Shown: positions 5,061 to 32,925 of the stretch, in pieces | Numbering within the stretch: position 1 is the first letter of the stretch | How the letters are laid out: the number at the start of each line of letters is the position of its first letter | From: an uncultured Chitinophagaceae bacterium | GTDB taxonomy: Bacteria; Bacteroidota; Bacteroidia; Chitinophagales; Chitinophagaceae | NCBI GenBank assembly: GCA_903883945.1 | Contig: CAISCV010000046.1 | Span: 1-41,136, forward strand | DNA: 41,136 nucleotides | Direction of reading: 5' to 3' | The notes under the pieces: generated by a model | The model's database searches: none | Told to the model about the DNA's origin: nothing | The model's input: only the letters and a program-made list of their open reading frames with translations | Translations under genes and position numbers: made by a program

Positions 5061-5188
5061 TATTCGTTAATTTAATTTATTACTAAACAGATTTGGCAAT
5101 GGTAGCCAACATCTAAAAACGCTGTAACCCTTTAAGCTAAAGCATTCTGTCTTTTTAATCCTCTTTCCCTTCACTAAAATTGGGTCGT

Positions 5189-5370
5189 GACGCACTTGAG
5201 TCAAGCTTCGACTCACTTGAGTCACGACCTGACCCAAGTGAGTGGAACCGTCACCCATCTGAGTCGAGGCGAGACCCAAGTGAGTCAGGGTTTGACTCAG
5301 GTGAGTCGAAACGTAACCCACTTGAGTCAAACCCTGACCCACTTGAGTCGAAACGTGACTCAAGTGAGGG
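5189..5370 (-). repeat. Array A: nine 21-bp tandem units with palindromic core
   Basis: Nine units of exactly 21 bp start at 5189, 5210, 5231, 5252, 5273, 5294, 5315, 5336 and 5357 (the last core ends at 5370). Each is a 14-bp imperfect palindrome of consensus GACYCAMKTGAGTC followed by a 7-bp spacer that varies (AAGCTTC, ACGACCT, GAACCGT and so on; GAAACGT twice). The centre appears as CACTTG in some units and as its reverse complement CAAGTG in others. The array lies 129 bp upstream of the start of the 4407-5060 gene. Both strands are open through it, with the same heptad T-[HQ]-[LV]-[SG], but no ATG opens the minus frame, so translation is doubtful. Confidence 0.93.
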
Positions 5371-9347: not shown

Positions 9348-9686
9348 TTATTCATACCCACTTTTAATAACAGTCAAAATCATTTTAAATCTACCATCAG
9401 GCTTTATATGATTGGGGGTATGTGCAGGAATAATGATGGAATCGCCTGTTTTTAATAAATGCAAACTATCTCCAATTACAAGTTCAACTTTTCCATCAAT
9501 TACTTGAGCAAACGTGTCGAAGGGGGTCGTTTTTTCGGTAAGACCTTCGCCCGTATCTACCGACATCACACTGATATTTCCAGTTGATTTCTTAAGAATC
9601 GTTTTGATTACTACAGAATTTGCTACATATTCAATAATCTCTACGGTGATAAATGCTTTGTCTTTTTCCATTTCTGAACTTTCCAT
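9348..9686 (-). CDS. Cupin domain-containing protein
   Basis: A 112-residue single-domain cupin. 'TPFDTFAQVIDGKVELVIGDSLHLLKTGDSIIIPAHTPNHIKPDG' over about residues 55-99 carries the two cupin motifs, with the PxHxPNH pattern of motif 2. The usual metal-binding HxH of motif 1 is replaced ('TFAQVIDG'), so metal binding may be reduced. No substrate can be assigned. It is the last gene of the minus-strand stress cluster, 71 bp after CsbD, and ends at a good terminator. Two Met codons at the start (residues 1 and 6) are both possible; the upstream one is used here. Confidence 0.85.
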   Translation of the reverse strand: MESSEMEKDKAFITVEIIEYVANSVVIKTILKKSTGNISVMSVDTGEGLTEKTTPFDTFAQVIDGKVELVIGDSLHLLKTGDSIIIPAHTPNHIKPDGRFKMILTVIKSGYE

Positions 9687-9757: not shown

Positions 9758-9943
9758 CTACATGTCTGAGATAATTTTATGAAGCTGCTCTTTAGATTTC
9801 CCTAATTTGATTTGCAGTCTTCCCAACATTTCATCTTTTGTTCCTTCTACAAACAATAAGTCATTGTCTGTAAGTTGGGCAAATTGTTGTTTCAGTTTTC
9901 CTTTTTGTTCATTCCATTTGCCTTCTAATTCTGTAGTATTCAT
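9758..9943 (-). CDS. CsbD family stress protein
   Basis: A 61-residue hydrophilic protein with the CsbD pattern 'ELEGKWNEQKGKLKQQFAQLTDNDL' at its start (residues 5-29) and 'GTKDEMLGRLQIKLGKSKEQ' later. CsbD-like proteins are small general-stress proteins (sigma-B controlled in Bacillus, YjbJ in E. coli) of unknown biochemistry. The promoter region carries the 9-11-9 inverted repeat at 10012-10040 and a -7-like box at 9980-9989, the same geometry as two other promoters in the cluster, supporting shared stress control. Confidence 0.9.
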   Translation of the reverse strand: MNTTELEGKWNEQKGKLKQQFAQLTDNDLLFVEGTKDEMLGRLQIKLGKSKEQLHKIISDM

Positions 9944-9979: not shown

Positions 9980-9989
9980 TGTAAAGGTG
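9980..9989 (-). promoter_or_regulatory. -7-like promoter box of the csbD-type gene
   Basis: Read on the minus strand it is CACCTTTACA, 37 bp before the start codon and exactly 22 bp from the inverted repeat at 10012-10040. The same word, with the same spacing, occurs at 16144-16153. It is a variant of the Bacteroidota TAnnTTTG box. Confidence 0.6.
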
Positions 9990-10011
9990 GGCGGCAGGGG
10001 TACTATAATTG

Positions 10012-10040
10012 TTATATAACTAACCCTATCATTTGCATAA
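10012..10040 (-). promoter_or_regulatory. 9-11-9 inverted-repeat operator (site 1)
   Basis: TTATATAAC, 11 bp, TTTGCATAA. Against the perfect copy at 19119-19147 the left half matches 8 of 9 and the right half 7 of 9. It begins 69 bp upstream of the CsbD start, the same distance as the site before the 58-aa gene. Confidence 0.6.
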
Positions 10041-10085
10041 TTCCACGATAATTTATTTAACTTTTCAAGTAATCATGCAGTTGGT

Positions 10086-10397
10086 CTACAGTAATTCTTC
10101 AAAAGCAGGCAAATCATTTTTAGGAGCCTCAGATGCTGCTTGTTGAATTCCCTTTTTGTAAATGAATTTACCCCACGTTACCCCATTCCAGAACCGTTCA
10201 TGAAAAAAGTAAGCAGCTGCTATATAAAAATTACTCACAGCCAAATAGCCAAAGGCAAACTTCATTTGATCTGATAACATATACATAAATATTATGTCTA
10301 GTACCAGAATTAGTAGTCCGTAACTAATTGTTTTTGAAACAGACCTTTGCCATATTTCTTTTGCTCGATGCGTATGGGGTAACGTTCTTTGTATCAT
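10086..10397 (-). CDS. DUF2061 membrane protein
   Basis: A 103-residue protein with the DUF2061 core: 'SVSKTISYGLLILVLDIIFMYML' (about residues 19-41), a short linker, then 'AFGYLAVSNFYIAAAYFFHERFWNGVTWG' (about residues 48-76) with the conserved 'YFFHERFWN'. It has two membrane-spanning helices. Function unknown; the family occurs beside sulfur and stress genes. Its start overlaps the stop of the UspA gene by 4 bp (ATGA type), so it is coupled to YceI and UspA. The C-terminal ~25 residues are polar. Confidence 0.85.
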   Translation of the reverse strand: MIQRTLPHTHRAKEIWQRSVSKTISYGLLILVLDIIFMYMLSDQMKFAFGYLAVSNFYIAAAYFFHERFWNGVTWGKFIYKKGIQQAASEAPKNDLPAFEELL

Positions 10398-10864
10398 TTC
10401 TTGATAGGTATTACAAACACTGGTATTTCTGAATGTCTAATTACTTTTTCGGCAACACTTCCAATCATTAAATGCGCTAACCCTGTTCTGCCGTTGGTAC
10501 CCACTACAATTAAGTCGGCATTCCATTCTTCAGCAACCCGTAAAATGGCTTCATACGGCGAGCCTTCTTCTATAAAAGTGACTACTTTGTGATTGAAAAA
10601 TAATTTGCTAATAAGTCTTGTATTAGCTATTTCAAAATTTTTATGTAGAATACCTTCTATCTCCATTTCGGAGGTTAGGTTTTCATTAAATCCATAACTA
10701 GGTATAGGCAAGTCGGCTTCATTTATTACTGCGGGTGTTTCAACAACACTTACAATCGCAACTTCAGTATGCAATTGTTCAACCAATTGCAATGCACCCA
10801 ATGCAACTTCTTCGGAGGATGTTTCACTTTCGATTGCTATCAATATTCTTTTTATATTTTTCAC
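10394..10864 (-). CDS. Universal stress protein, UspA family
   Basis: A 156-residue single-domain Usp. It starts with 'KRILIAIESETSSEEVALGAL' and ends with the ATP-binding signature 'VGTNGRTGLAHLMIGSVAEK' (about residues 121-140), matching G-x2-G-x9-G-S, followed by 'PVFVIPIKK'. ATP-binding Usp proteins are induced by growth arrest, redox and envelope stress. It lies 18 bp after YceI and overlaps the DUF2061 gene by 4 bp, so the three form an operon segment within the stress cluster. Confidence 0.93.
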   Translation of the reverse strand: MKNIKRILIAIESETSSEEVALGALQLVEQLHTEVAIVSVVETPAVINEADLPIPSYGFNENLTSEMEIEGILHKNFEIANTRLISKLFFNHKVVTFIEEGSPYEAILRVAEEWNADLIVVGTNGRTGLAHLMIGSVAEKVIRHSEIPVFVIPIKK

Positions 10865-10882
10865 AATAATTTGTTTTATATG

Positions 10883-11452
10883 TTATGATTGCAAAACCAT
10901 TTCTGTCTTTTTTTCACTAACGTTTATTAGTTCTATCTCACAAGAAATTTTCACTTCGTCACTTATCAAAAAGCCACCAGTTTCAATGTAAGAGTTCCAA
11001 TTGAGTCCGAAATCGCTTCTGTTAATCTTGCCCGAAATAGAGAAGCCTGTTTTTTCATTTCCCCAAGAATCATTGACTATCCCGCCAAAATCAACATTCA
11101 ATTTTATATTCTGAGTTATTCCTTTTATGGTTAATTCTCCCCATAAATCGTGGCTTCCTTCTTTATCCGCTTCAGTCATTGTGCTGGCAATGAAAGTTAT
11201 TTGTTTGTGATTTTCCACATCTAAAAAGTCAATTCCTCTTAAATGCTCGTCTCGTTGTTCATCCCCTGTATAAATTGAGCTTGCATCAATCCACAAATCA
11301 ATCTCGACAGTTGTAAAGTCTTTTCCACTGGTATAAATACTACCATCAAAACTTTTGAAGGCGCATTTCACATTGGAAATCATCAGATGCCTAATCTTAA
11401 ACTCAATAGTACTGTGGGTTTGGTCTATTGACCATTTTGTTTCTTTTATCAT
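10883..11452 (-). CDS. YceI family lipid-binding-like protein
   Basis: A 189-residue YceI-domain protein: 'KWSIDQTHSTIEFKIRHLMISN' at the N-terminus, 'RDEHLRGIDFLDVENHKQITFIAS' in the middle (about residues 83-106), 'GELTIKGITQNIKLNVDFGG' at ~125-144 and 'FSISGKINRSDFGLNWN' at ~157-173. YceI is a lipocalin-like barrel that binds polyisoprenoids. Unlike E. coli YceI there is no signal peptide here, so it should be cytoplasmic. It precedes UspA by 18 bp. Confidence 0.92.
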   Translation of the reverse strand: MIKETKWSIDQTHSTIEFKIRHLMISNVKCAFKSFDGSIYTSGKDFTTVEIDLWIDASSIYTGDEQRDEHLRGIDFLDVENHKQITFIASTMTEADKEGSHDLWGELTIKGITQNIKLNVDFGGIVNDSWGNEKTGFSISGKINRSDFGLNWNSYIETGGFLISDEVKISCEIELINVSEKKTEMVLQS

Positions 11453-11493
11453 TTTATTTATTTTTTTGATTACAATATAATTCTGATACCTTT

Positions 11494-11877
11494 TTATAAA
11501 TCAGACATCTTATCCATTATCCCAATTTGTGTTTTCTCTCTTTTAATATCTTGCTTAATAAAAGCATACAAACTCATATAAATATTTGCAATCCACACAA
11601 GTGCAAAGCCTGCTATTAGATACCCAACCCAATCATCTAACAACAATTTGAATTTGGTTAAAAAAAGAAAGAGTAGGGTTACATAATGGCTGAAGCAATA
11701 CTCACAGGTCAATAGGTAGAAAAACTTTTTTTTAATTATTGTGGTGCTACTCTTATAACTTTCTGTACAATACACTTTCAATTCCTTAAATATTTCTTCC
11801 TGGGTAACCGTCCAAGCAATACAAGCAATAGGGAGCGGTAGTATAAAAAGCCAGAGTAGTTGAGTAGTTATGTCCAT
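11494..11877 (-). CDS. Small membrane protein with CxxC motif, function unknown
   Basis: A 127-residue protein with likely membrane segments at about residues 6-25, 62-78 and 83-108. 'LLTCEYCFSHYVTLLFLF' (about residues 55-72) puts a Cys-x2-Cys-x2-Ser-His at the start of a helix, a pattern I associate with DUF1360-like membrane proteins, but I am not certain of the family. The gene begins 27 bp after the BON-domain gene and is probably co-transcribed with it. Confidence 0.7.
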   Translation of the reverse strand: MDITTQLLWLFILPLPIACIAWTVTQEEIFKELKVYCTESYKSSTTIIKKKFFYLLTCEYCFSHYVTLLFLFLTKFKLLLDDWVGYLIAGFALVWIANIYMSLYAFIKQDIKREKTQIGIMDKMSDL

Positions 11878-11904
11878 GTTTAATGACGTTAAAAAAAGTA
11901 ATTT

Positions 11905-12573
11905 CTAAAACTTCAATCTATCATATTCAATCGCCAGTTCATTATCTACGTTCCAAACTCCTGGGGCATTCCACGCTATTCTTGCTGCTTCATCTTTTTG
12001 GTATAAAGACCCTACGGTTCCAGTTAGTGTTACCCTATTTCCTATAACCTTTACCATTATATTCTGGGTACTAACCGACCAATTACGAGCAAGTGCTAGT
12101 TCAATGTCTTCTTTTTCTACCTCGTCCTCACTTTCAGATCTTACTATAACTTCATTTACCACTCCCCTTACCCCAAGCTGTTTACTAGCCGCATGACGAG
12201 CAGCTTCCTTCTGATAATTCCATTCAAGTACTCCTTCCAAAGTCACCCAGCCATCTTCAACTTTAACTTTCAAGGTATTATTTGGCACATCCCAATTCCA
12301 CTTAAAAGCGTTTAGTACTTCATCTGCAATTTTGTTGTCATCGAGGGTTACTATTTCTCCAAAGTCAATAATAATTTTTTCAACAACTGCTTTCACGCCT
12401 GCAACACTTTTGGCTGCATTCTCCGCCTCCATCTTCTTTGCATAACTACTCACGATTCCAGAAAGCGTTACTACGCCATCTTTAACTGTAACCCCAATTT
12501 CTGCTGCGTTCAATAATGGCTCCCATTTAATGGCATCTTGTACGTCTTTTTGCAATTCTTCGTTACTTCTCAT
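11905..12573 (-). CDS. Triple BON-domain (OsmY-like) protein
   Basis: A 222-residue protein made of three BON domains at about residues 2-70, 76-146 and 149-220. Each has the 'V.V.DG.VTLSG.V.....K..AE.AA....GV..V.N.I' pattern, for example 'GVTVKDGVVTLSGIVSSYAKK', 'LKVKVEDGWVTLEGVLEWNYQKE' split across the second, and 'VKVIGNRVTLTGTVGSLYQK' in the third. BON domains are thought to bind phospholipid surfaces; E. coli OsmY is a periplasmic osmotic-stress protein. This protein has no signal peptide. A palindromic AGGAAAGTTTCCT lies ~20 bp upstream of the start. Confidence 0.92.
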   Translation of the reverse strand: MRSNEELQKDVQDAIKWEPLLNAAEIGVTVKDGVVTLSGIVSSYAKKMEAENAAKSVAGVKAVVEKIIIDFGEIVTLDDNKIADEVLNAFKWNWDVPNNTLKVKVEDGWVTLEGVLEWNYQKEAARHAASKQLGVRGVVNEVIVRSESEDEVEKEDIELALARNWSVSTQNIMVKVIGNRVTLTGTVGSLYQKDEAARIAWNAPGVWNVDNELAIEYDRLKF

Positions 12574-12592
12574 TTGTATTTGTTTTGCATTA

Positions 12593-12605
12593 AGGAAAGT
12601 TTCCT
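12593..12605. promoter_or_regulatory. Palindrome upstream of BON-domain gene
   Basis: AGGAAAGTTTCCT is a perfect 6-1-6 palindrome 20 bp before the start codon. It could be an operator or simply a leader hairpin. No second copy was seen in the window. Confidence 0.3.
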
Positions 12606-12652
12606 CAATAGTTAAAAAATAATCGTATTGATTCAGAGTTTTAATTCTTTGA

Positions 12653-12678
12653 GTGGGTATTCCGTTTTATATACCCAC
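12653..12678 (-). terminator. Hairpin between PRC-barrel and BON genes
   Basis: GTGGGTAT, 10-bp loop, ATACCCAC: a perfect 8-bp stem 10 bp past the stop of the PRC-barrel gene. It lacks a U-tract, so it may be an attenuator, processing site or operator rather than a strong terminator. Confidence 0.45.
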
Positions 12679-12687
12679 ACAAGTTTA

Positions 12688-13080
12688 TCAAACAAAACTC
12701 CAGTAATCGTATACCCTATCATAATGTATGTTTGTATCCGGCCAATGATCCATGTCAAAGCCAGGTGCGTTTTCTAAAGCTTCTTTTGATTGATTAAAAT
12801 GGTACGCATGCTTTATAGAATCGACGATAAGTAGTTTGAAAGGAATGGCAAAATATTTAGTCCCCATTCCAAGGAACCCGCCAAACTCTATGATGTAATA
12901 ACTGATTTGACCATCAGAAATATCAATCATAATATTCTTAATTACCCCCATCTTTTCATTGTGGTTATTATAAACACTATCCCCTATGATTGACAATGCT
13001 GTTAAATATTTCAATGGACGATTTTTGTCTGGACCTTCATGGTTAATACCTGTAAGGTCATCTTTAGTTAATGTTGTCAT
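12688..13080 (-). CDS. PRC-barrel domain-containing protein
   Basis: A 130-residue cytoplasmic protein. The PRC-barrel covers about residues 27-95: 'LTALSIIGDSVYNNHNEKMGVIKNIMID' then 'GQISYYIIEFGGFLGMGTKYFAIPFKLL', the classic beta-barrel pattern with the conserved 'G..YFAIP' strand. PRC-barrel proteins bind other proteins or RNA, and stand-alone forms are common in stress clusters. It follows the SDR gene by 42 bp. Confidence 0.9.
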   Translation of the reverse strand: MTTLTKDDLTGINHEGPDKNRPLKYLTALSIIGDSVYNNHNEKMGVIKNIMIDISDGQISYYIIEFGGFLGMGTKYFAIPFKLLIVDSIKHAYHFNQSKEALENAPGFDMDHWPDTNIHYDRVYDYWSFV

Positions 13081-13122
13081 TTTTATTTAATTAAATTATA
13101 AAGAAAATTTTATTGATTCATA

Positions 13123-13866
13123 TCAACTAGTAAGATATCCGCCATCTATTGGATAGTACCCGCCGGTTGCATATGAAGCTTCGTCTGAACTCAGCCATAT
13201 TACCAAAGCTGCTACTTCTTTGGGTTCACCCAACCTACCTATAGGATGTTTTAGTGATAACTCCTCTTTTGATTTTGCATTCATCGTACTTAAAAGAGGG
13301 GTATTAATAAAACCAGGCGCCACACAATTGATACGTATTCCCTTGGAAGAATATTCAAAAGCAGCATTTTGTGTAAGACCAACAACTCCATGTTTTGCAG
13401 CAACATATCCGCTAAAGGAAGCAAAGCCTACTACACCCAATATAGAAGCCGTATTTACGATAACGCCACTGCCTTGTTTTAGCATAGCTGCTATCTCATA
13501 TTTCATACAATAGAAAACCCCATTCAGGTTTACGGAAATTACCTTTTCAAAACCATTGTTACTCATATCTGCCAAAGTGTTTGTTTCGCCCAGGATGCCC
13601 GCATTGTTAAAGGCGATGTCTATTTTTCCATATTTATGAAGGGTTTCTTCTATTAATCTCTCACATTCAAGGGCTATACTAACATCTGTTTTTACAAAGT
13701 ACGCTTCACCACCTTCCGCAACTATTTTCGCTACTGTATCATTATCCTTTATATCCGACACAATTACTTTTGCTCCATTTGCTGCATAAGAGAATGCCGC
13801 TGCCTGACCAATCCCCGAACCTGCGCCTGTTACCAAGGCTACCTTATCCTGAAATAATCTTTTCAT
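13123..13866 (-). CDS. SDR family oxidoreductase
   Basis: A 247-residue classical short-chain dehydrogenase. It has 'VTGAGSGIGQ' (cofactor loop, residues ~13-22), 'DIAFNNAGIL' (NNAG, ~84-93), catalytic Ser in 'NTASILGVVG', catalytic Tyr and Lys in 'SGYVAAKHGVVGLT' (YxxxK, ~152-165) and 'VAPGFINTPL' (PG motif). The acidic residue after strand 2 ('VIVSDIKDND') suggests NAD rather than NADP preference, which is inference. C-terminal 'GGYYPIDGGYLTS' completes the fold. Substrate unknown. It sits in the stress cluster between an orphan 119-aa gene and the PRC-barrel gene. Confidence 0.93.
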   Translation of the reverse strand: MKRLFQDKVALVTGAGSGIGQAAAFSYAANGAKVIVSDIKDNDTVAKIVAEGGEAYFVKTDVSIALECERLIEETLHKYGKIDIAFNNAGILGETNTLADMSNNGFEKVISVNLNGVFYCMKYEIAAMLKQGSGVIVNTASILGVVGFASFSGYVAAKHGVVGLTQNAAFEYSSKGIRINCVAPGFINTPLLSTMNAKSKEELSLKHPIGRLGEPKEVAALVIWLSSDEASYATGGYYPIDGGYLTS

Positions 13867-13932
13867 TTTTGTATTTTAATCCGTTAATTTTTACTAATAG
13901 TTCAATCATTTGCTTAATTCCACGTAGTATGC

Positions 13933-14292
13933 TTACAAATCTGACAACTCCCATAACCAACGCGCCATCTTTTCATTGATAGTTGGCATTTGCATCACCA
14001 TTAAGTTGAACCCATTTCTGCTCATCAACCAATCAATCCTAAGCTCTTCCAATTGTGAGTCGTATATGAAAACCTTTTTAAAATGATGCCTACTGTTTAT
14101 GCCTAATAAATAGCATACCTGAAGCGACTTTTGCAATGCTTCTTCCATAATCATCGCTGTAGAATGATTACCCGTAAATGATAACTGCCCAATTGAATAA
14201 GTAAGCTTGGAATTATAAAAAACATCTTCAAGCCCCCAAGAGGAAAACTGATGTTTGCAAGACGGGTAACGACTAATGTTTACTATTTTCAT
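13933..14292 (-). CDS. Hypothetical protein, 119 aa
   Basis: I do not recognise the family. The protein is soluble, with mixed alpha/beta character. 'MIMEEALQKSLQVCYLLGINSRHHFKKVFIY' (roughly residues 48-78) is amphipathic, followed by 'RIDWLMSRNGFNLMVMQMPTINEKMARWLWEL'. The start ATG at 14292 lies 33 bp after the DnaJ stop and the stop is 66 bp before the SDR start, so it belongs to the same run. Coding is supported by position and lack of an alternative frame. Confidence 0.7.
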   Translation of the reverse strand: MKIVNISRYPSCKHQFSSWGLEDVFYNSKLTYSIGQLSFTGNHSTAMIMEEALQKSLQVCYLLGINSRHHFKKVFIYDSQLEELRIDWLMSRNGFNLMVMQMPTINEKMARWLWELSDL

Positions 14293-14325
14293 ACATTTTC
14301 AATTATTTCCATCCAATAATGATGG

Positions 14326-15237
14326 TTATGTTGTTGCCTTTAATGTTTCAAATAATTCCTTTTGTTTGTCAGTAAGTTCCGTTGGTATTGTTATTTCCAA
14401 TTGAATATATAAGTCGCCAAAATCATTGGGTTTGCCATAAACCGGCATTCCTTTTCCTTTTAGTCGGATACTTTTGCCATTTTGAGAACCCGCTAGTATT
14501 TTTATCTTTACTTGTCCCGACATAGTATCCACTAAAACTTCTCCGCCCAAAACCGCTGTGTATAGGTCTATCTTCTGATTAAAATATAGATTATCTCCCT
14601 TCCGAACGAAAAGGCTATCCGGCTTTACTTTTATAGTCACCATCAAATTGCCATTGTATTCATTGCTACTTCCTTTGCCCCCCTTGCCTTTGATGTTTAA
14701 AAGCTGATCATTATAAGAACCAGGCTTTGTAGTAATCCGAAGCTTTTCATTTTCCAATTGCACAATTCTGCTTGTTCCTTTATAAGCTTCTTTCAAAGTG
14801 ATTTCCATTTCCGTTTGATAATCTTCCCCTCTGAAAGTACTACTCCTATTCTGTCCTTTTGCTTTGCCAGTCCTGTTAGAAAAGAACTGTTCGAAAAAAT
14901 CGGAAAAATCTCCATTACCACCGCCGAAAGCATCATTGGTATTTCCTCTTGCAAAAGGGTCTCCCGATCCATCAAAAGGGTTGCCTCCTTGTCTATTTTT
15001 ATATTGCTCGTGTTGTGCCCAATTTTCCCCAAGCTCGTCGTATTTCTTTCTTTTTTCGGGATCGCTTAGCACTTCATTTGCTTCATTGATGGTTTTAAAT
15101 TTTTCCTCCGACTCTTTATTGCCTGGATTCTTGTCGGGGTGATATTTTACCGCCAAAGCCCTATATGCTTTTTTTATTTCAGCCTGAGCCGCCTTTTTAT
15201 CTACCCCTAATACTTTATAGTAATCTTTATAATCCAC
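14326..15237 (-). CDS. DnaJ/CbpA-type co-chaperone (class II J protein)
   Basis: A 303-residue J protein. The J domain is at residues ~4-70 with 'YHPDKNPG' (the HPD motif that stimulates DnaK), then a Gly/Phe-rich linker ('[15 protein letters not shown]', '[14 protein letters not shown]') to ~115, then a DnaJ C-terminal substrate-binding region ('[20 protein letters not shown]', 'IKGKGGKG', '[18 protein letters not shown]'). The Cys-rich zinc finger of DnaJ is absent, so it is a CbpA-like class II member. It is in the stress cluster 51 bp after the acidic protein gene, consistent with a stress-induced rather than housekeeping role. Confidence 0.93.
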
Positions 15238-15288
15238 GGTATTAAAATAAATAGCCTTAAAATCATTTTAACCAACACCTTTTGTTCA

Positions 15289-15624
15289 TTAGTCGCCTTT
15301 ATCCTCTTCCAAATCATCATGTTCATCTCCACCAAGACTATAATAATTATTCTCTTCATCCTCACTACCTATCTTTTCGTCTTCATCATCTAGTTCTGCC
15401 CCTGGCACATCTAAATCTTCTATATAGTTTGGCTCTTTTACTTCTGAATGCCTACTTCTTTTTCTTGTTTCTTTGAGTTGAGTAATATCTTCTGGGTCTA
15501 TATCTTGTTCTTCTTTACTCCTTTTATAAATGTCATCGCCTTTAGGATACATTGGATAATCTGGAAACTCATTTAACTCATTTTGACTATCTGCCAGGTT
15601 TGTATATTTCGCCTTCTTGTTCAT
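15289..15624 (-). CDS. Highly acidic small protein, function unknown
   Basis: A 111-residue, probably disordered, strongly acidic protein. The tail 'LDVPGAELDDEDEKIGSEDE' followed by 'ENNYYSLGGDEHDDLEED' (residues ~70-109) is a pattern I recall from many Bacteroidota genomes, where such proteins are uncharacterised. The N-terminal part holds 'YPKGDDIYKRSKEEQDIDPED'-type charged sequence. It lies 11 bp after the SHOCT gene, so they are co-transcribed. No enzyme motif is present. Confidence 0.8.
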   Translation of the reverse strand: MNKKAKYTNLADSQNELNEFPDYPMYPKGDDIYKRSKEEQDIDPEDITQLKETRKRSRHSEVKEPNYIEDLDVPGAELDDEDEKIGSEDEENNYYSLGGDEHDDLEEDKGD

Positions 15625-15635
15625 GATTATATTTT

Positions 15636-15896
15636 TTATTTACTTTTTTTAATATGATCAATTGTTTGTAGTGCAGCCAAATCTTCTTCGAGAATTCTTT
15701 TACGTTCCTTGTATTCTTCTGTTGTCATTTGGCCCATTGCATACCGTTGTTGTAGAATATCTAGTGGGGTGTCTTTTGCTTTTCTTTGACCTGGCACATC
15801 GTAGGGAGTTGCAAAAATCCAGAAGAGAATGACCATCCATATTATCCACCATATTGCGTTCATTCCCCAGTAATAATTTGTGTAAAACATTGTCAT
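15636..15896 (-). CDS. SHOCT domain membrane protein
   Basis: An 86-residue protein with one N-terminal membrane segment ('GMNAIWWIIWMVILFWIFAT', residues ~11-30) and a C-terminal SHOCT motif, 'DTPLDILQQRYAMGQMTTEE' followed by 'YKERKRILEEDL' (about residues 42-73). SHOCT is a short two-helix oligomerisation motif. It lies between the 58-aa gene (34 bp) and the acidic gene (11 bp). Confidence 0.88.
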   Translation of the reverse strand: MTMFYTNYYWGMNAIWWIIWMVILFWIFATPYDVPGQRKAKDTPLDILQQRYAMGQMTTEEYKERKRILEEDLAALQTIDHIKKSK

Positions 15897-15930
15897 TAAT
15901 TTATAATTTGAAAAATGGGTTTAACCTTTA

Positions 15931-16107
15931 TTAGCGAATACGCTCTGCTTCAATTCCATCTTGTATCATTTGTATTCTGGTAGCATTGTAAGCAGACATT
16001 CTGGCTAGGTATTCATTGTCTTTTTTATAGTCTTGAATTTTCTTTCTTAATTCATCAGATGATAAGCTTTTCACTTGATCCTTGGTGGAAATAGCTGCGA
16101 TATTCAT
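15931..16107 (-). CDS. Small 58-aa protein heading the stress run
   Basis: A short frame with ATG at 16107 and TAA at 15931, giving 58 residues: MNIAAISTKDQVKSLSSDEL, then a Lys/Asp-rich helical stretch with 'RKKIQDYKKDNEYLARM', ending 'DGIEAERIR'. It is probably coiled-coil and cytoplasmic. I do not recognise the family. Support for coding is its position as first gene after the 9-11-9 operator and -7-like box (start codon 69 bp from the site, as for CsbD), 34 bp before SHOCT, and a normal amino-acid composition. Confidence 0.7.
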   Translation of the reverse strand: MNIAAISTKDQVKSLSSDELRKKIQDYKKDNEYLARMSAYNATRIQMIQDGIEAERIR

Positions 16108-16143
16108 TGTAGTAAAATTTATTTTGTAACTGATTTATTACGA

Positions 16144-16153
16144 TGTAAAGGTG
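16144..16153 (-). promoter_or_regulatory. -7-like promoter box of the 58-aa gene
   Basis: Minus-strand CACCTTTACA, identical to the CsbD box and also exactly 22 bp from its inverted repeat (16176-16204). Confidence 0.6.
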
Positions 16154-16175
16154 AGTGTTGGTAGCAGGGCTATCA

Positions 16176-16204
16176 TTACACAATCGATACGAAAAGTTGT
16201 ATAA
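16176..16204 (-). promoter_or_regulatory. 9-11-9 inverted-repeat operator (site 2)
   Basis: TTACACAAT, 11 bp, GTTGTATAA. The right half is identical to the perfect copy at 19119-19147 and the left half matches 7 of 9. It lies in a 253-bp intergenic region that otherwise holds no gene. Confidence 0.7.
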
Positions 16205-16360
16205 TTCATTGATTTTTATTTTTTTAACTCCAAAAAAGCTTTAAAAGAGGGGTTTCTGTATTTCTTTAGCTAATAAGCACACTTTATTCTTTTAAATCTT
16301 ACGCATTTAACTTGGTTTAAAAAATATAGAACCAGTTGGGATGATTCATTAAGTTGAGTC

Positions 16361-17176
16361 TCATTGAAACTTCAGAGGGGTTTCATACTCAACCTTAGTA
16401 ATATTAAATTTTGCATAGCTGAAATCGCCGTCTCTTAATCTCCATAATACTTCAAAGGCTGTAGGTATTATTACCTGATTCAATTCCTTGTAGTTGGATA
16501 CTTTTATAACCCAATTCTCTAATTTGTTTTCATCCATAAACCGTTTGGTTTGCATTTCGACAATTTGCCCTAGTTGGTTGAAGGAAACATAGAAAAATAA
16601 GGAAAGTCCCTTGTAGTTATAGGTAAACTTGGCAGAAGTATCATTCACAAAATACCATTGCAACAATTTGCTAGGCAACAAATTGGTAGGATACATTATA
16701 CTCTCGCCAAGCCATCGAAGCAGTTCTCCCTGATTGTAATTTCCTCCTTTGCCCTCAACTACTTTTATTAAAGACAATATATAAACGGTAAGCCTTCCAA
16801 TTTCCCCTATATACCTATCAAATGCGATGAAAATAGCTGTGGTTCCTTTCCAGATAAACCCTGGTTTTTGGGTTGTAGCATATTGTTCGCCTTTTATTTG
16901 AATCCAATCTTTTTTAAGACCCGTTTTAAAAAATCCACTATGGGTAATGCGTACATAACTGATATAGGGCTGCCCTTCTTTTAACACATAATTGAAATAG
17001 CGCTGAACAGGTTCGGGCAAATGATCCAGTTGTTTTTTGTGAAAGACTATGTTCGAAATATTGTTGGATTGGGCAAATAGTTCTTTCACCTCTTTATCAA
17101 ATTTATTTACTAAAGTCACTTTGCCAATCAACAGGATTAGAACGAGGAAAACTATTAGGGTGAATGCAATAATCAC
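16361..17176 (-). CDS. DUF6544-like protein with N-terminal membrane anchor
   Basis: A 271-residue protein with one N-terminal membrane helix ('IIAFTLIVFLVLILLIGKV', residues 2-20). The body begins 'LDHLPEPVQRYFNYVLKEGQ' (about residues 50-69), the block I associate with the DUF6544/DUF6920 group, followed by 'RITHSGFFKTGLKKDWIQIKGEQY' spread over ~78-101 and 'PGFIWKGTTAIF'. This is a beta-rich, possibly lipid-contacting fold, but function is unknown. It is the last gene of a four-gene operon behind rubrerythrin, DoxX and the oxidoreductase, 15 bp after the last. The DUF number is from memory. Confidence 0.75.
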   Translation of the reverse strand: MIIAFTLIVFLVLILLIGKVTLVNKFDKEVKELFAQSNNISNIVFHKKQLDHLPEPVQRYFNYVLKEGQPYISYVRITHSGFFKTGLKKDWIQIKGEQYATTQKPGFIWKGTTAIFIAFDRYIGEIGRLTVYILSLIKVVEGKGGNYNQGELLRWLGESIMYPTNLLPSKLLQWYFVNDTSAKFTYNYKGLSLFFYVSFNQLGQIVEMQTKRFMDENKLENWVIKVSNYKELNQVIIPTAFEVLWRLRDGDFSYAKFNITKVEYETPLKFQ

Positions 17177-17191
17177 TTTCTATTTTTTTGT

Positions 17192-17770
17192 TTATTGTTG
17201 TTGTTTGCCTAGCAGCTCAACTTGTTTCAACCACTTTGCTCTTTTTAACTCATCTGAAGACTTTATAGGCGAAAAGGAAGTAATTTTCACAGGCTTTATT
17301 CCGCAAAATTCCAAGGTTGCGCGTTTCATAGCGTTGTGTCCCGGACTTCGGTACAGCAACCAATAATACCATTTGGGGGCATCCATGGTAACGATGAGTC
17401 TGGCAGTTTTTCCTTTTAATAGTTTATCCCAAAGGGGAGAATCTTTATGGTATTTAAATGCGTAATTGGGTAGAAAAATCCTATCTATAAACCCTTTCAA
17501 CAAGGCAGGGAAAGTTCCCCACCAAGTTGGATATACAAAAACGAGGTGATCGGCTTTCAAAATTTCTTGCTGTATATGTACTAAATCTGGCTCTAGTTCC
17601 GATACTACTCTATAGCCATAAGTGAGGATGGGATTAAAGGAGACATCTATCAGGTGTACCAATGTACATTCGGCACCACTAGACAGTACGCCCGCTTGAT
17701 ACCTTTCGGCCAAACCAAAACAAAAACTTTCTTTATCGGGATGACCATTTATGATGAGTATCTTTTTCAT
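17192..17770 (-). CDS. NAD(P)H-dependent quinone reductase-like flavoprotein
   Basis: A 192-residue flavodoxin-fold protein of the NQO1/MdaB/KefF group. 'KILIINGHPDKESFCFGLAE' (residues 3-22) binds the flavin phosphate, and 'DHLVFVYPTWWGTFPALLKG' with 'FIDRIFLPNYAFKY' (about residues 73-106) forms the flavin ring site. These enzymes reduce quinones with two electrons and protect against redox cycling. Its position between DoxX and DUF6544-like genes, downstream of rubrerythrin, fits an oxidative-stress operon. Confidence 0.92.
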   Translation of the reverse strand: MKKILIINGHPDKESFCFGLAERYQAGVLSSGAECTLVHLIDVSFNPILTYGYRVVSELEPDLVHIQQEILKADHLVFVYPTWWGTFPALLKGFIDRIFLPNYAFKYHKDSPLWDKLLKGKTARLIVTMDAPKWYYWLLYRSPGHNAMKRATLEFCGIKPVKITSFSPIKSSDELKRAKWLKQVELLGKQQQ

Positions 17771-17794
17771 ATTCTTAGTTAATAAGGCTATTTG

Positions 17795-18277
17795 TTATTT
17801 ATCCTCTTTTATTATTTGTGCTTTTTCATTATTCTTAGATTGATGTTTCTTCATTCTATAATAGTCCAATGAAAAGGCTCCGCTATTTCTTACAAAAAGA
17901 AAAAAAAGAGGAATTAACATCAGCATCACAACATTCATATCCGAATTTCCTACAAAAGAATTTTGCGGTTGTTTATAATAACTCTCAAGTAATATCGCAG
18001 GAACTTGTAAAACAATTACAATGCGGGTAAACAAACCAATTACTATAAAAAAACCTCCTAACAATTGTATCGTCACAATGAATAAAACAAGAATTTCTGC
18101 TATCGAAAAATTAAAATCCTTGCTTAATACTTCCACTATTTGTGTATTTTGACTAAAAAAGAAAAGCCCATTTAAGATAATAAATAGCCCCACTGTTATT
18201 CTACTAATTAACTCCAAATAATTCGCCCCAGTGTATCTGCTCTTGTTTTTTGGGTTATAAAGCGGTAATTCTTTCAT
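17795..18277 (-). CDS. DoxX family membrane protein
   Basis: A 160-residue protein with four membrane helices. 'LISRITVGLFIILNGLFFF' (about residues 23-41) and 'IVTIQLLGGFFIVIGLFTRIVIV' (about residues 68-90) fit DoxX. The C-terminus is Lys/Asn-rich. In mycobacteria a DoxX forms a membrane redox complex with superoxide dismutase; here the neighbours are rubrerythrin and a quinone reductase, so a redox-defence role is plausible but inferred. It starts 23 bp after the rubrerythrin stop. Confidence 0.87.
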   Translation of the reverse strand: MKELPLYNPKNKSRYTGANYLELISRITVGLFIILNGLFFFSQNTQIVEVLSKDFNFSIAEILVLFIVTIQLLGGFFIVIGLFTRIVIVLQVPAILLESYYKQPQNSFVGNSDMNVVMLMLIPLFFLFVRNSGAFSLDYYRMKKHQSKNNEKAQIIKEDK

Positions 18278-18300
18278 GTTTTTGCATATTTAATAGTGGA

Positions 18301-19059
18301 TTATAAGGCGGAGACTTTTATAAATTTATCTCTGGGTGTAAAGGAAAAGTCGCAACGTTTGGGGGCAGTGGCTTCGTAGGTATTACCACAAACGGGGCAA
18401 ACAAAATATATTGAGGGCATTGTTTTAAGGGTATTGCTGTTAATGTCTCCCAGGGCTTTTTCGAAGAATATTTTGTGTTTTTTTTCGGTTTCCATCGCAT
18501 ACAAAATACTTGTATGAGCCAACTGATTATTGGCTTCTTCTGCCACTTTCAGATAGCTAGGATAGACAGACCTCGCTTCATTAGCCTCATTATCTATATC
18601 ATTATGCAAATTTTCTTTGGTCGTTTTTACCACAAAAGCAGGTATTAGTATAGGTATTGCCGCACTTGTCTCTTGCAAAACTTCTTTGTGGTTATTGGCT
18701 TGAATGCTTTCGGCAATGGACACTGCTTTATATAACAGCGCAACAGGAGGATAGCCCTCTTCGGCTGCTTTTTTGGAATAGGCGGCATATTTTGCGGTAG
18801 CCGTTACTTCATCTCTGAAGGCAGTTTTCATGTTCTCTATTGTTTTCAGCTTGGCGTTTGCTTCCAACGTGTCTATATACGATTTGTCTTTTTTTGTTTG
18901 GTGGGTTTCATCGGTCGTTCCTTTTACAGCAGCGGAGTCTTCATAATAGCTGTTGTCTTGGGGTATCTTATTTTCCTTCGTGTTGTTACTACCGCAACCA
19001 CTGCCGATTGCCAGGCTAAAAACTAATAAAACGGAACATACCCTGATTGCTTTTTTCAT
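18301..19059 (-). CDS. Rubrerythrin family lipoprotein
   Basis: A 252-residue protein. Residues 1-22 are a lipoprotein-type signal ending 'LAIGSGCGSN'. Residues ~75-210 are a ferritin-like four-helix bundle: 'AFRDEVTATAKYAAYSKKAAEEG', 'SIAESIQANNHKEVL', 'HTSILYAMETEKKHKIFFEKAL'. Residues ~218-240 carry a rubredoxin-type knuckle, 'CPVCGNTYEATAPKRC', but the second Cys pair is reduced to one Cys ('RCDFSF'), and the first Glu-x2-His of the di-iron site reads Glu-Ser-Ile-Gln. Rubrerythrins reduce peroxide with two irons; this copy may be altered. It heads a four-gene operon preceded by a perfect 9-11-9 inverted repeat. Confidence 0.88.
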   Translation of the reverse strand: MKKAIRVCSVLLVFSLAIGSGCGSNNTKENKIPQDNSYYEDSAAVKGTTDETHQTKKDKSYIDTLEANAKLKTIENMKTAFRDEVTATAKYAAYSKKAAEEGYPPVALLYKAVSIAESIQANNHKEVLQETSAAIPILIPAFVVKTTKENLHNDIDNEANEARSVYPSYLKVAEEANNQLAHTSILYAMETEKKHKIFFEKALGDINSNTLKTMPSIYFVCPVCGNTYEATAPKRCDFSFTPRDKFIKVSAL

Positions 19060-19088
19060 TATCTAACTATTTAATTTTAATAATGATG

Positions 19089-19096
19089 CAAAACTA
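19089..19096 (-). promoter_or_regulatory. -7 box of the rubrerythrin operon
   Basis: Minus-strand TAGTTTTG matches the Bacteroidota TAnnTTTG box. It lies 29 bp before the start codon and exactly 22 bp from the inverted repeat at 19119-19147. Confidence 0.7.
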
Positions 19097-19118
19097 TTTC
19101 TAGTCCTTGGCTTGGTTG

Positions 19119-19147
19119 TTATACAACTGTACCTAAAAGTTGTATAA
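19119..19147 (-). promoter_or_regulatory. 9-11-9 inverted-repeat operator (site 3, perfect)
   Basis: TTATACAAC, 11 bp, GTTGTATAA: both 9-bp halves are perfect reverse complements, 20 bp centre to centre (about two helical turns). It lies upstream of the -7 box where a -33 element would be, suiting an activator. Confidence 0.75.
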
Positions 19148-19175
19148 TTTTTGGTTTGGGTATTGGCAAAAAAAG

Positions 19176-19960: not shown

Positions 19961-20179
19961 TGCTAATTTGAAATCCTAAATTGGCAATTTGAAATCCTAA
20001 ACTACCAATTTGAAATCCTAAATTGGCAATTTGAAATCCTAAATTACCAATTTGAAATCCTAAATTGGTAATTTGAGATCCTAAATTGGTAATTTGAGAT
20101 CCTAAATTGGTAATTTGAGATCCTAAATTACCAATTTGAAATCCTAAATTGGTAATTTGAAATCCTACATTGTAGGCTT
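19961..20179 (-). repeat. Array B: nine 21-bp tandem units with palindromic core
   Basis: Nine full units start at 19978, 19999, 20020, 20041, 20062, 20083, 20104, 20125 and 20146, with a partial unit before (19961) and a decayed one after (20167). Each has a 13-bp core of the form AAATTnnnAATTT and an 8-bp spacer, GAAATCCT or GAGATCCT. The central three bases are GGC twice, GGT four times and ACC three times; GGT and ACC are reverse complements, so the core occurs in both orientations. The minus strand is open through the array with heptads such as FQIGNLG. The frame also reaches an ATG at 20294 but is broken by one TAG at 20238-20240. Confidence 0.93.
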
Positions 20180-32162: not shown

Positions 32163-32690
32163 TTAAAGGAAAAAGGGTTGCCTCTTGTTCCTTTGTATAA
32201 CAGGCTTTCGATTTAAAACATGCAAACCGCTATTGATAAGTTGTCGTGCTATGCTTTGAGGGGTATTTTCAATTGAAGAGAAAAAAGCGATAGCAAAATT
32301 ATTGAAGCCATGTAAATTGTGATGTTTGACATAAGCTGTGCCGTTATTGGTATCAGTTGAGCTGTTATTGGTATCAGTTAAGCCGTTATTGGCAGCAGTT
32401 GTGCTGTTATTGGCAGCAGTTGTGCTGTTATTGGCAGCAGTTGTGCTGTTATTGGCAGCAGTTGAGCTGTTATTGGGAGCAGCTGAGCTGTTATTGGGAG
32501 CAGTTGAGCCGTTATTGGGAGTAGTTGAGCCGTTATTGGGAGTAGGCGTGAGTAGTAGGGCAAAGTGAGTGGTGAGCGGTGCGTGGTGAGTTGTGAGCGG
32601 TGCGTGATTGATGAGATGGGCTTGTTGAAAAGGCTTGATTTTGCTAGACTCAATGGTGGAAAGTTTGACAGAAGTAATCTTATACATCAT
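32163..32690 (-). CDS. Repeat-containing ORF that spans array C
   Basis: A 175-codon frame from tandem ATG ATG at 32690. It has an N-terminal part with a short repeat of 'HAPLTTH' type, then nine heptads read from array C ('TPNNGST', 'APNNSSA', 'AANNSTT'), then ~50 non-repeat residues ('GFNNFAIAFFSSIENTPQS' and a basic tail). It has a plausible promoter: a -7-like box at 32707-32716 and a 9-11-9 type site at 32739-32767. Whether it is translated is uncertain; loci A and B lack an ATG-opened frame across their arrays, which argues that the array acts as DNA or RNA. An Asn/Ser/Thr-rich secreted-like linker is the alternative. Confidence 0.45.
   Translation of the reverse strand: MMYKITSVKLSTIESSKIKPFQQAHLINHAPLTTHHAPLTTHFALLLTPTPNNGSTTPNNGSTAPNNSSAAPNNSSTAANNSTTAANNSTTAANNSTTAANNGLTDTNNSSTDTNNGTAYVKHHNLHGFNNFAIAFFSSIENTPQSIARQLINSGLHVLNRKPVIQRNKRQPFFL
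32351..32539 (-). repeat. Array C: nine 21-bp tandem units
   Basis: Nine units start at 32351, 32372, 32393, 32414, 32435, 32456, 32477, 32498 and 32519. Each has a 13-bp core (for example CAGCAGTTGTGCT) and an 8-bp spacer that is invariant, GTTATTGG. With the next G the core gives CAGCA-GTTG-TGCTG, a 5-4-5 palindrome, in three units; other units have shorter arms. Flanking partial units lie at 32330-32350 and 32540-32560. The period and number of units equal those of arrays A and B. Confidence 0.92.
32560..32608 (-). repeat. GTGAGTGGTGAGCGG simple repeat beside array C
   Basis: Two to three near-copies of GTGAGCGGTGCGTGGTGAG-type sequence, encoding 'HAPLTTHHAPLTTH' in the array C ORF. It resembles the CACTCACCACTCACC run at 4385-4402 downstream of locus A. 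Confidence 0.6.
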
Positions 32691-32706: not shown

Positions 32707-32716
32707 AGCAAAACTC
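32707..32716 (-). promoter_or_regulatory. -7-like box upstream of array C ORF
   Basis: Minus-strand GAGTTTTGCT, 8 of 10 identical to the rubrerythrin promoter box region TAGTTTTGCA. It is exactly 22 bp from the 9-11-9 type site at 32739-32767. Confidence 0.5.
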
Positions 32717-32738
32717 GGATGGTATTAAGGTTTGGGCG

Positions 32739-32767
32739 TTGTCAAATTTTAATTAATTGTTGTATAA
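32739..32767 (-). promoter_or_regulatory. 9-11-9 inverted-repeat operator (site 4, degenerate proximal half)
   Basis: TTGTCAAAT, 11 bp, GTTGTATAA. The promoter-distal half is perfect; the proximal half matches the consensus TTATACAAC at only 5 of 9. The geometry to the -7-like box is the same as in sites 1-3. Confidence 0.45.
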
Positions 32768-32925
32768 TTAATAGAATTTGATACCTTGCTAGAATGGATG
32801 ACTTTATTTAGGACGAGACACAGGAACTACCCCGCCCTACGGGCACCCCTTGAGGAGGGGAATTGCACCACGAAAGGAGGTAAAAGCTTGGTTTTATAAG
32901 CATCTACTTCTAACTCATCCAGTGT

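Follow-up and report, generated by a model that had tools for sequence, protein, structure and literature searches.

We analysed a 41,136-bp stretch of the genome of an uncultured Chitinophagaceae bacterium (contig CAISCV010000046.1, assembly GCA_903883945.1; the whole stretch is called the window hereafter, and the 4.09-Mb genome G000), in which a conserved DNA element recurs at a fixed distance from promoter boxes and 5' of genes from stress-related families. In related genomes, the same element lies around genes of a candidate AraC-type regulator. An original prediction, made from the window alone, had described three copies as inverted repeats of two 9-bp arms around 11 bp (9-11-9), each 22 bp from a -7-like box. 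Indeed, the pattern TTATACAAC-N11-GTTGTATAA with up to three mismatches has exactly three matches in the window, at 10012-10040, 16176-16204 and 19119-19147 with 3, 2 and 0 mismatches, respectively, while 100 shuffles gave a mean of 0.05 and a maximum of 1. All three sites are oriented along the minus strand and point to the CsbD-like, 58-aa and rubrerythrin genes. The minus-strand boxes CACCTTTACA (9980-9989), CACCTTTACA (16144-16153) and TAGTTTTGCA (19087-19096) each lie 22 bp from their own site, and both the layout and the gap are thereby confirmed from the sequence. The locus comprises the following features, with bit scores from a 69-column profile:

10010..10050, minus strand: operator 1 (41-bp element), 5' of the CsbD-like gene; 43.1 bits
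9982..9989, minus strand: -7-like box CACCTTTA of promoter 1, 22 bp from the 9-11-9 core
9758..9943, minus strand: CsbD-like gene, first after operator 1, named by likeness to others (3/40 in the scanned batch match CsbD)
9348..9686, minus strand: cupin-domain gene (PF07883)
16174..16214, minus strand: operator 2 (41-bp element), 5' of the 58-aa/SHOCT/acidic/DnaJ run; 60.0 bits
16146..16153, minus strand: -7-like box CACCTTTA of promoter 2, 22 bp from the site
15931..16107, minus strand: 58-aa protein, first after operator 2; a relative follows a site in another genome, G001 (L099:4353-4529)
15636..15896, minus strand: SHOCT-domain protein (PF09851)
14326..15237, minus strand: DnaJ-type co-chaperone (PF00226 and PF01556)
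19117..19157, minus strand: operator 3 (41-bp element, a perfect palindrome in appearance), 5' of the rubrerythrin gene; 50.9 bits
19089..19096, minus strand: -7-like box TAGTTTTG of promoter 3, 22 bp from the site
18301..19059, minus strand: rubrerythrin-domain protein (PF02915), first after operator 3
17795..18277, minus strand: DoxX/DoxD-like membrane protein (domain scan)
17192..17770, minus strand: flavodoxin-like oxidoreductase (PF02525)
32737..32777, minus strand: operator 4, absent from the original prediction, 5' of an open reading frame (ORF) with 21-bp repeats; 31.4 bits (30.5 with a profile excluding this genome)
32709..32716, minus strand: -7-like box GAGTTTTG of promoter 4 (sequence and profile scan)

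The run after operator 2 also contains the acidic-protein gene. Under a profile derived solely from 41 sites in four further genomes of this genus, the three window sites score 53.2, 44.6 and 37.7 bits and the fourth (32709-32777) 30.5 bits, compared with a plus-strand maximum of -11.4. The fourth site, the 41-bp extent of the element, a candidate regulator and a hairpin at the 5' end of transcripts are new relative to the original prediction.

The genus collection, obtained with the composite pattern from five genomes, holds 59 rows. Fifty-two of these carry at most two mismatches, one of them back to front, and with this row removed 51 were used to build the profile. The conserved stretch spans positions -9 to 31 and reads aaCCtgtGAA, TTATACAAC, a T-rich spacer and AATTGTATAAC. 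Position 21 is A in 44/52 sites, where the mirror of C9 would need G (the search pattern permitted A or G), and position 30, to which the pattern assigned no fixed letter, is C in 42/52 sites, where the mirror of A0 would need T. Moreover, the upstream box aaCCtgtGAA, also outside the search pattern, has no mirror image downstream. As positions 21 and 30 contradict a mirror, a repeat at 21 bp fits instead, AATTRTAYAAC-N10-AATTRTAYAAC in this genus, with TTATGTAAC-type cores elsewhere. Around regulator genes, 123 distinct sites were collected, of which 16 belong to other species of the genus and the others stem from elsewhere; across this set, the cores are mainly TGTAA in the same orientation. 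Here, the 21-bp direct register scores 0.575 and the best mirror 0.481, a comparison that is not independent because the sites were found with the genus profile. Together with positions 21 and 30 and the unmirrored upstream box, this score leads us to reject the palindromic reading of the original prediction; the impression of an inverted repeat arises because TTRTAYAA is itself nearly palindromic. Judging from its sequence columns, the operator extends over 41 bp, lacks symmetry and combines direct repetition at 21 bp with an additional box upstream. A direct repeat about two helical turns apart, as found in the 21-bp register of the genus columns, is a trait of AraC/XylS-type operators.

Throughout G000, the palindrome alone occurs at 24 places, only twice the background given by the reversed pattern (12). 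Joined to the box (palindrome, N22, YANNTTTR; up to three mismatches), it yields 19 rows against 2 in the reversed control. The expectation that the pattern exceeds background is thus borne out strongly for the combination with the box and weakly for the palindrome by itself. Dropping three back-to-front readings of other sites and two rows that we judged chance-like (on contigs C126 and C202) leaves 14 separate sites. With C281:43864 (general pattern, 3 mismatches) and the profile-derived window site 32709-32777 added, this genome has about 16 candidate promoters. Across 79 genomes, the general composite pattern finds 144 sites in 30, and its reversed control 0 in all 79. In 290 kb around 24 regulator genes, 46 sites reach at least 15 bits, compared with 1 in 255 kb taken at random from the genomes concerned; eight of these 24 loci were selected because sites had already been seen there, and the remaining 16 (187 kb) hold 26 sites, in 12/16 loci. 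Furthermore, 53 of 80 named regulator loci (the best 80 of 371, three of them from genomes used for profile training) have a site, 104 sites in total, and shuffled DNA and the mirror profile gave none. The operator is real and widespread in Bacteroidota.

To the spacing, an operator-column scan of 104 regulator loci contributed 221 operators (some loci overlap). Over 41 distances from 5 to 45 bp, the strict box [CT]ANCTTT[AG] falls at 22 bp 95 times, at 21 bp 11 times and once elsewhere, a sharpness that is partly inherited from the profile, whose source sites had this 22-bp spacing. At the loci of G001-G004, 34 of 49 operators have the strict box, all at 22 bp; for the 15 operators at loci of G000 itself, it lies at 22 bp seven times, at 24 once and at 30 once. 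The box downstream of the operator is mostly CACCTTTR in the genus rows, departing from TAnnTTTG; the housekeeping-type TAGTTTTG takes the same distance in 5/59 rows. TTG at -33 was not found in the genus alignment columns. Since the text of PMC9723704 places the promoter box of Flavobacterium psychrophilum at -12 to -5, the operator would span -73 to -33, with the downstream core at -42 to -34. A downstream half-site that abuts or overlaps the -35/-33 region characterizes class II activation in the AraC/XylS family, and the predicted half-site at -42 to -34 does so. With its fixed distance from the box, its place at -33 and its location 5' of stress-family genes, the operator is therefore probably an activator site, as the original prediction had proposed.

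Because G000 has 14 matches to the helix-turn-helix (HTH) family HTH_18, the choice of a regulator needed tests. The candidate is a 185-aa protein whose gene lies beyond the window, on contig C65 (3584-4141); the run of genes to which it belongs includes a 104-aa gene with a site at its 5' side. Its C-terminal double-HTH domain matches PF12833 (HTH_18) at 62.2 bits (cut-off 33.6), as is typical of the AraC/XylS family. A structure model made for an 82%-identical relative (L179; pLDDT 90, pTM 0.77) shows a β-α-β-β-α order with a two-residue last strand, followed by the AraC domain. A Foldseek search returned AraC-type domains on top (YesN, MarA, AraC), with the structures of MarA, SoxS and Rob matching the DNA-binding half; for the N-terminus, GolB and Atx1 were weak matches (E 0.07-0.14, TMt 0.66-0.69). 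PF00403 (HMA) has no match at E<=1 in the C65 regulator, and its match to one CxxC relative (E 0.0013) is below the curated cut-off. The CxxC metal-binding motif itself is lost from the C65 regulator (MVSIRC), where Ser replaces the first Cys. Among 123 homologues, 92 are SxxC and 21 CxxC, 10 being unclassed by pattern (by eye, several are CxxC or SxxC). Across an alignment of 50 homologues, Cys13 never varies, and at least 90% keep Ser10. We infer a metal-responsive ancestry with a changed role in the SxxC branch. A second HMA-AraC relative in G000 (C120, L038) retains CxxC and adjoins copper-chaperone-like (HMA) and heavy-metal-binding-like genes, as judged by eye.

Sites and regulator occur together. 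Sites are present in 24/27 genomes with a regulator match of at least 190 bits and in 6/52 others (P 1e-11; the five motif-defining genomes included), and outside the genus in 13/16 and 6/50 genomes, respectively (P 5e-7). Outside the genus, 40/61 sites lie within 10 kb of such a regulator gene, where 0.63 would be expected. In G005, no regulator match is better than a 53-residue fragment carrying 2 stops, and neither the genus nor the general pattern finds a site. The genes that follow the regulator on C65 (L010, 5609-7920) appear by eye to encode a 617-aa sensor-kinase-like and a 148-aa receiver-like protein.

The operator also has a fixed place at the end of the regulator gene. Of 92 SxxC genes, 37 share a start position, exact to within a base, for a site that scores at least 14 bits and overlaps the stop codon. 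When only the columns after the stop are scored, the core stands at a fixed offset from the regulator stop in 36/100 genes, compared with 0.046% at other offsets. The upstream box is AATGTGTGA in 14/102 genes and AACATGTGA in 9, which are codons for Asn-Val or Asn-Met plus the stop; this overlap may dictate the C-terminal Asn-Val/Met of the regulator. Operators at the regulator 3' end face the gene downstream of it. Throughout L179-L258, many regulator genes end in two codons and a stop (AAT GTG TGA, AAC ATG TGA) that double as the upstream box.

We then consider the first gene after each site. By the rule used, 6/57 genus sites have none, and the 123 regulator-locus sites give 113 distinct first genes; 40/51 genus and 87/113 regulator-locus first genes were scanned, eight of the 87 coming from other species of the genus. 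Omissions were made by hand (regulator genes, near-duplicates, repeat ORFs and ORFs that were cut or doubtful), and the tallies are descriptive for this reason: among the 40, ice-binding-like 3, CsbD 3, BON 2, OmpA 2, rubrerythrin 2, YceI 1 and DJ-1 1; among the 87, ice-binding-like 8, Cupin_2 7, CsbD 6, outer-membrane barrel 5, DUF5670 4 (lmo0937-type 4), HMA 2 and AcrB-type 1. The ice-binding-like family (PF11999) is thus the commonest, tied with CsbD in the genus. Judging by its gene content, the network is rich in stress-protection genes and likely has a role in stress. The window further contains tandem arrays with a 21-bp (7-codon) unit at 5186-5368, 19965-20172 and 32343-32539, the third of which lies inside the ORF after operator 4. 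By eye, short-repeat ORFs also stand 3' of sites in L006, L012, L103 and L128. A gene of 303-317 aa comes next in each of L006, L012 and the window.

At some promoters, a 16-nt hairpin such as GTAAC-AAATCA-GTTAC starts four bases after the box, at the predicted +1. The example in the window belongs to promoter 2:

16126..16141, minus strand: hairpin GTAAT-AAATCA-GTTAC, starting at the predicted +1 (from the -12 to -5 box position given in the text of PMC9723704)

In G000, box and hairpin come together at five places, all of them after palindrome-plus-box sites, and nowhere in the reversed control. All five outer pairs form in 41/172 distinct leaders, where 5.7 are expected with partners dealt anew, a count that is not a clean probability because the sites are related; the other 131/172 lack the full stem. 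The stem covaries, with A-T, G-C, C-G and T-G pairs, while the loop remains close to AAWTC. Folding energies of six hand-picked leaders range from -2.6 to -7.8 kcal/mol, with a z-score below -2.4 in only three. The hairpin points to a further layer of control, at the RNA level. Counterpart hairpin leaders were seen in L008, L010, L013, L099, L112 and others.

Taken together, we consider it highly probable that the sites are operators of a small HMA-AraC activator, which binds the 21-bp direct repeat, recruits polymerase and controls stress-protection and envelope genes. The N-terminal ~60 residues of this regulator would adopt an HMA (metal-chaperone-like) fold in which CxxC has become SxxC, and the C-terminal half would be the AraC double-HTH. 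Two copies would bind head to tail on the direct repeat, covering the predicted -73 to -33. At promoters without a -33 TTG, mostly those with CACCTTTR, the downstream copy would contact RNA polymerase and recruit it as in AraC/XylS class II activation. The network would join stress-protection and envelope genes, with a shared hairpin opening some of the transcripts.

It is unlikely that the element is instead an inverted repeat bound by another regulator, such as a response regulator, a Crp/Fnr-type or a TetR-type protein, with the AraC gene merely a frequent target or neighbour. Within the window's genus the core does read as 9-11-9, and kinase domains occur among the first genes (HisKA in 3/87 at regulator loci); a kinase-like and a receiver-like gene, so judged by eye, come after the C65 regulator. 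However, mirror symmetry is broken at positions 21 and 30 and on both flanks, and co-occurrence, proximity and the fixed 3'-end place tie the motif to the AraC-type gene family. Where it sits at the regulator 3' end, the operator points at the next gene and not at the regulator itself. That the element is the distal promoter part of an alternative sigma factor, an explanation judged on spacing and length only, is very improbable: the fixed distance to a box that is mostly CACCTTTR and not TAnnTTTG would suit it, but 41 bp (-73 to -33) exceeds the length of sigma elements, and the housekeeping-type TAGTTTTG stands at the same distance in five genus rows. Equally hard to credit are duplicated promoter copies without regulatory meaning, since, despite a 5' leader shared by several G000 promoters and some paralogous first genes, the variable spacer and 22-bp gap diverge, the 41-bp pattern is kept in many genera, and the element is conserved before unrelated genes in other families.

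Motif, spacing, asymmetry, conservation, linkage to the regulator gene and co-occurrence are computational observations; binding by a C65-type protein, activation and not repression, and the stress role are what we infer from them, and the term stress network is a reading of the gene content of the targets. Several points weigh against the HMA-AraC activator. In G000, the regulator is reached only via the 104-aa gene, whose site lies 549 bp upstream. At 27 of the 80 named regulator loci (the best 80 of 371), the genus-trained profile finds no site of at least 15 bits, and the profile for the regulator-end scans was trained on sites including those at regulator ends. The co-occurrence screen covered this regulator family alone. 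Three of the 27 genomes with a strong regulator (G055, G059, G073) have no site by the general pattern; a diverged 24-bit site lies at the end of the G055 regulator gene (L045), and in G059 a genus-pattern site adjoins its CxxC relative. Conversely, G076 has a site but no strong regulator, and in the other five of these six exceptions the site shares a contig with a weaker relative (160-183 bits). Lastly, G007, which has only a 45% relative, shows no site by the general pattern and one by the genus-pattern scan.

Among known systems, the closest are the AraC/XylS class II activators, for instance AraC at I1-I2 and XylS at Pm. Shared with these are the double-HTH C-terminus, the 21-bp direct repeat and the downstream half-site against -35/-33; the candidate differs in its HMA-like N-terminus, in place of an effector-binding cupin, in the extra conserved upstream box and in the Bacteroidota -7 promoter. 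MarA, SoxS and Rob are AraC-type proteins that govern many stress genes, and MarA and SoxS bind one ~20-bp box as monomers, whereas two copies and a separate N-terminal domain would act here. The N-terminal domain shares its β-α-β-β-α order with the HMA metal chaperones Atx1 and GolB, its last strand having only two residues; unlike in these, the first Cys of CxxC is Ser, and Pfam HMA is not matched. The general stress systems RpoS, SigB and PhyR-EcfG have some targets of similar kinds (CsbD, BON, DJ-1) and rely on a sigma switch, in contrast to the one-component activator proposed here. Bacteroidota are not known to possess RpoS or SigB, and no switch is known to have been defined for genes of theirs such as CsbD, rubrerythrin and BON. 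Within the same phylum, the alternative sigma factors that the text of PMC9723704 lists for F. psychrophilum are seven ECF factors and a single sigma-54, the latter tied to chaperone genes. The sigma-54 stress promoters described there carry -24/-12 elements and target GroEL, DnaK, ClpB and Lon; this is likewise a stress network, with promoter elements and targets different from those found here (PMC9723704). The main text of that paper never uses the terms AraC, CsbD, hairpin or general stress, and in the open-access papers surveyed the titles and abstract openings name neither this regulator nor this operator.

Strongly linked to its sites, the candidate activator comes from a known family, and its N-terminal domain and the overlap of gene and operator are unusual. 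Where an operator contains the last two codons and stop of its own regulator gene, coding and regulatory constraints overlap in an unusual way. More tentatively, the system could be a general stress regulator that has so far escaped notice in environmental Bacteroidota: an HMA-AraC activator derived from metal-responsive CxxC relatives and now a redox or metal-relic sensor, with its operator locked in the 3' end of its own gene and a 5'-terminal hairpin setting transcript stability or translation groupwise. The genera that carry the regulator include Pedobacter, Niabella and Dyadobacter. There, the control of these genes becomes a testable question, since both a candidate protein and an operator of 41 bp are at hand, together with a promoter grammar (operator, about 20 bp, CACCTTTR and, in part, a hairpin at the predicted +1).

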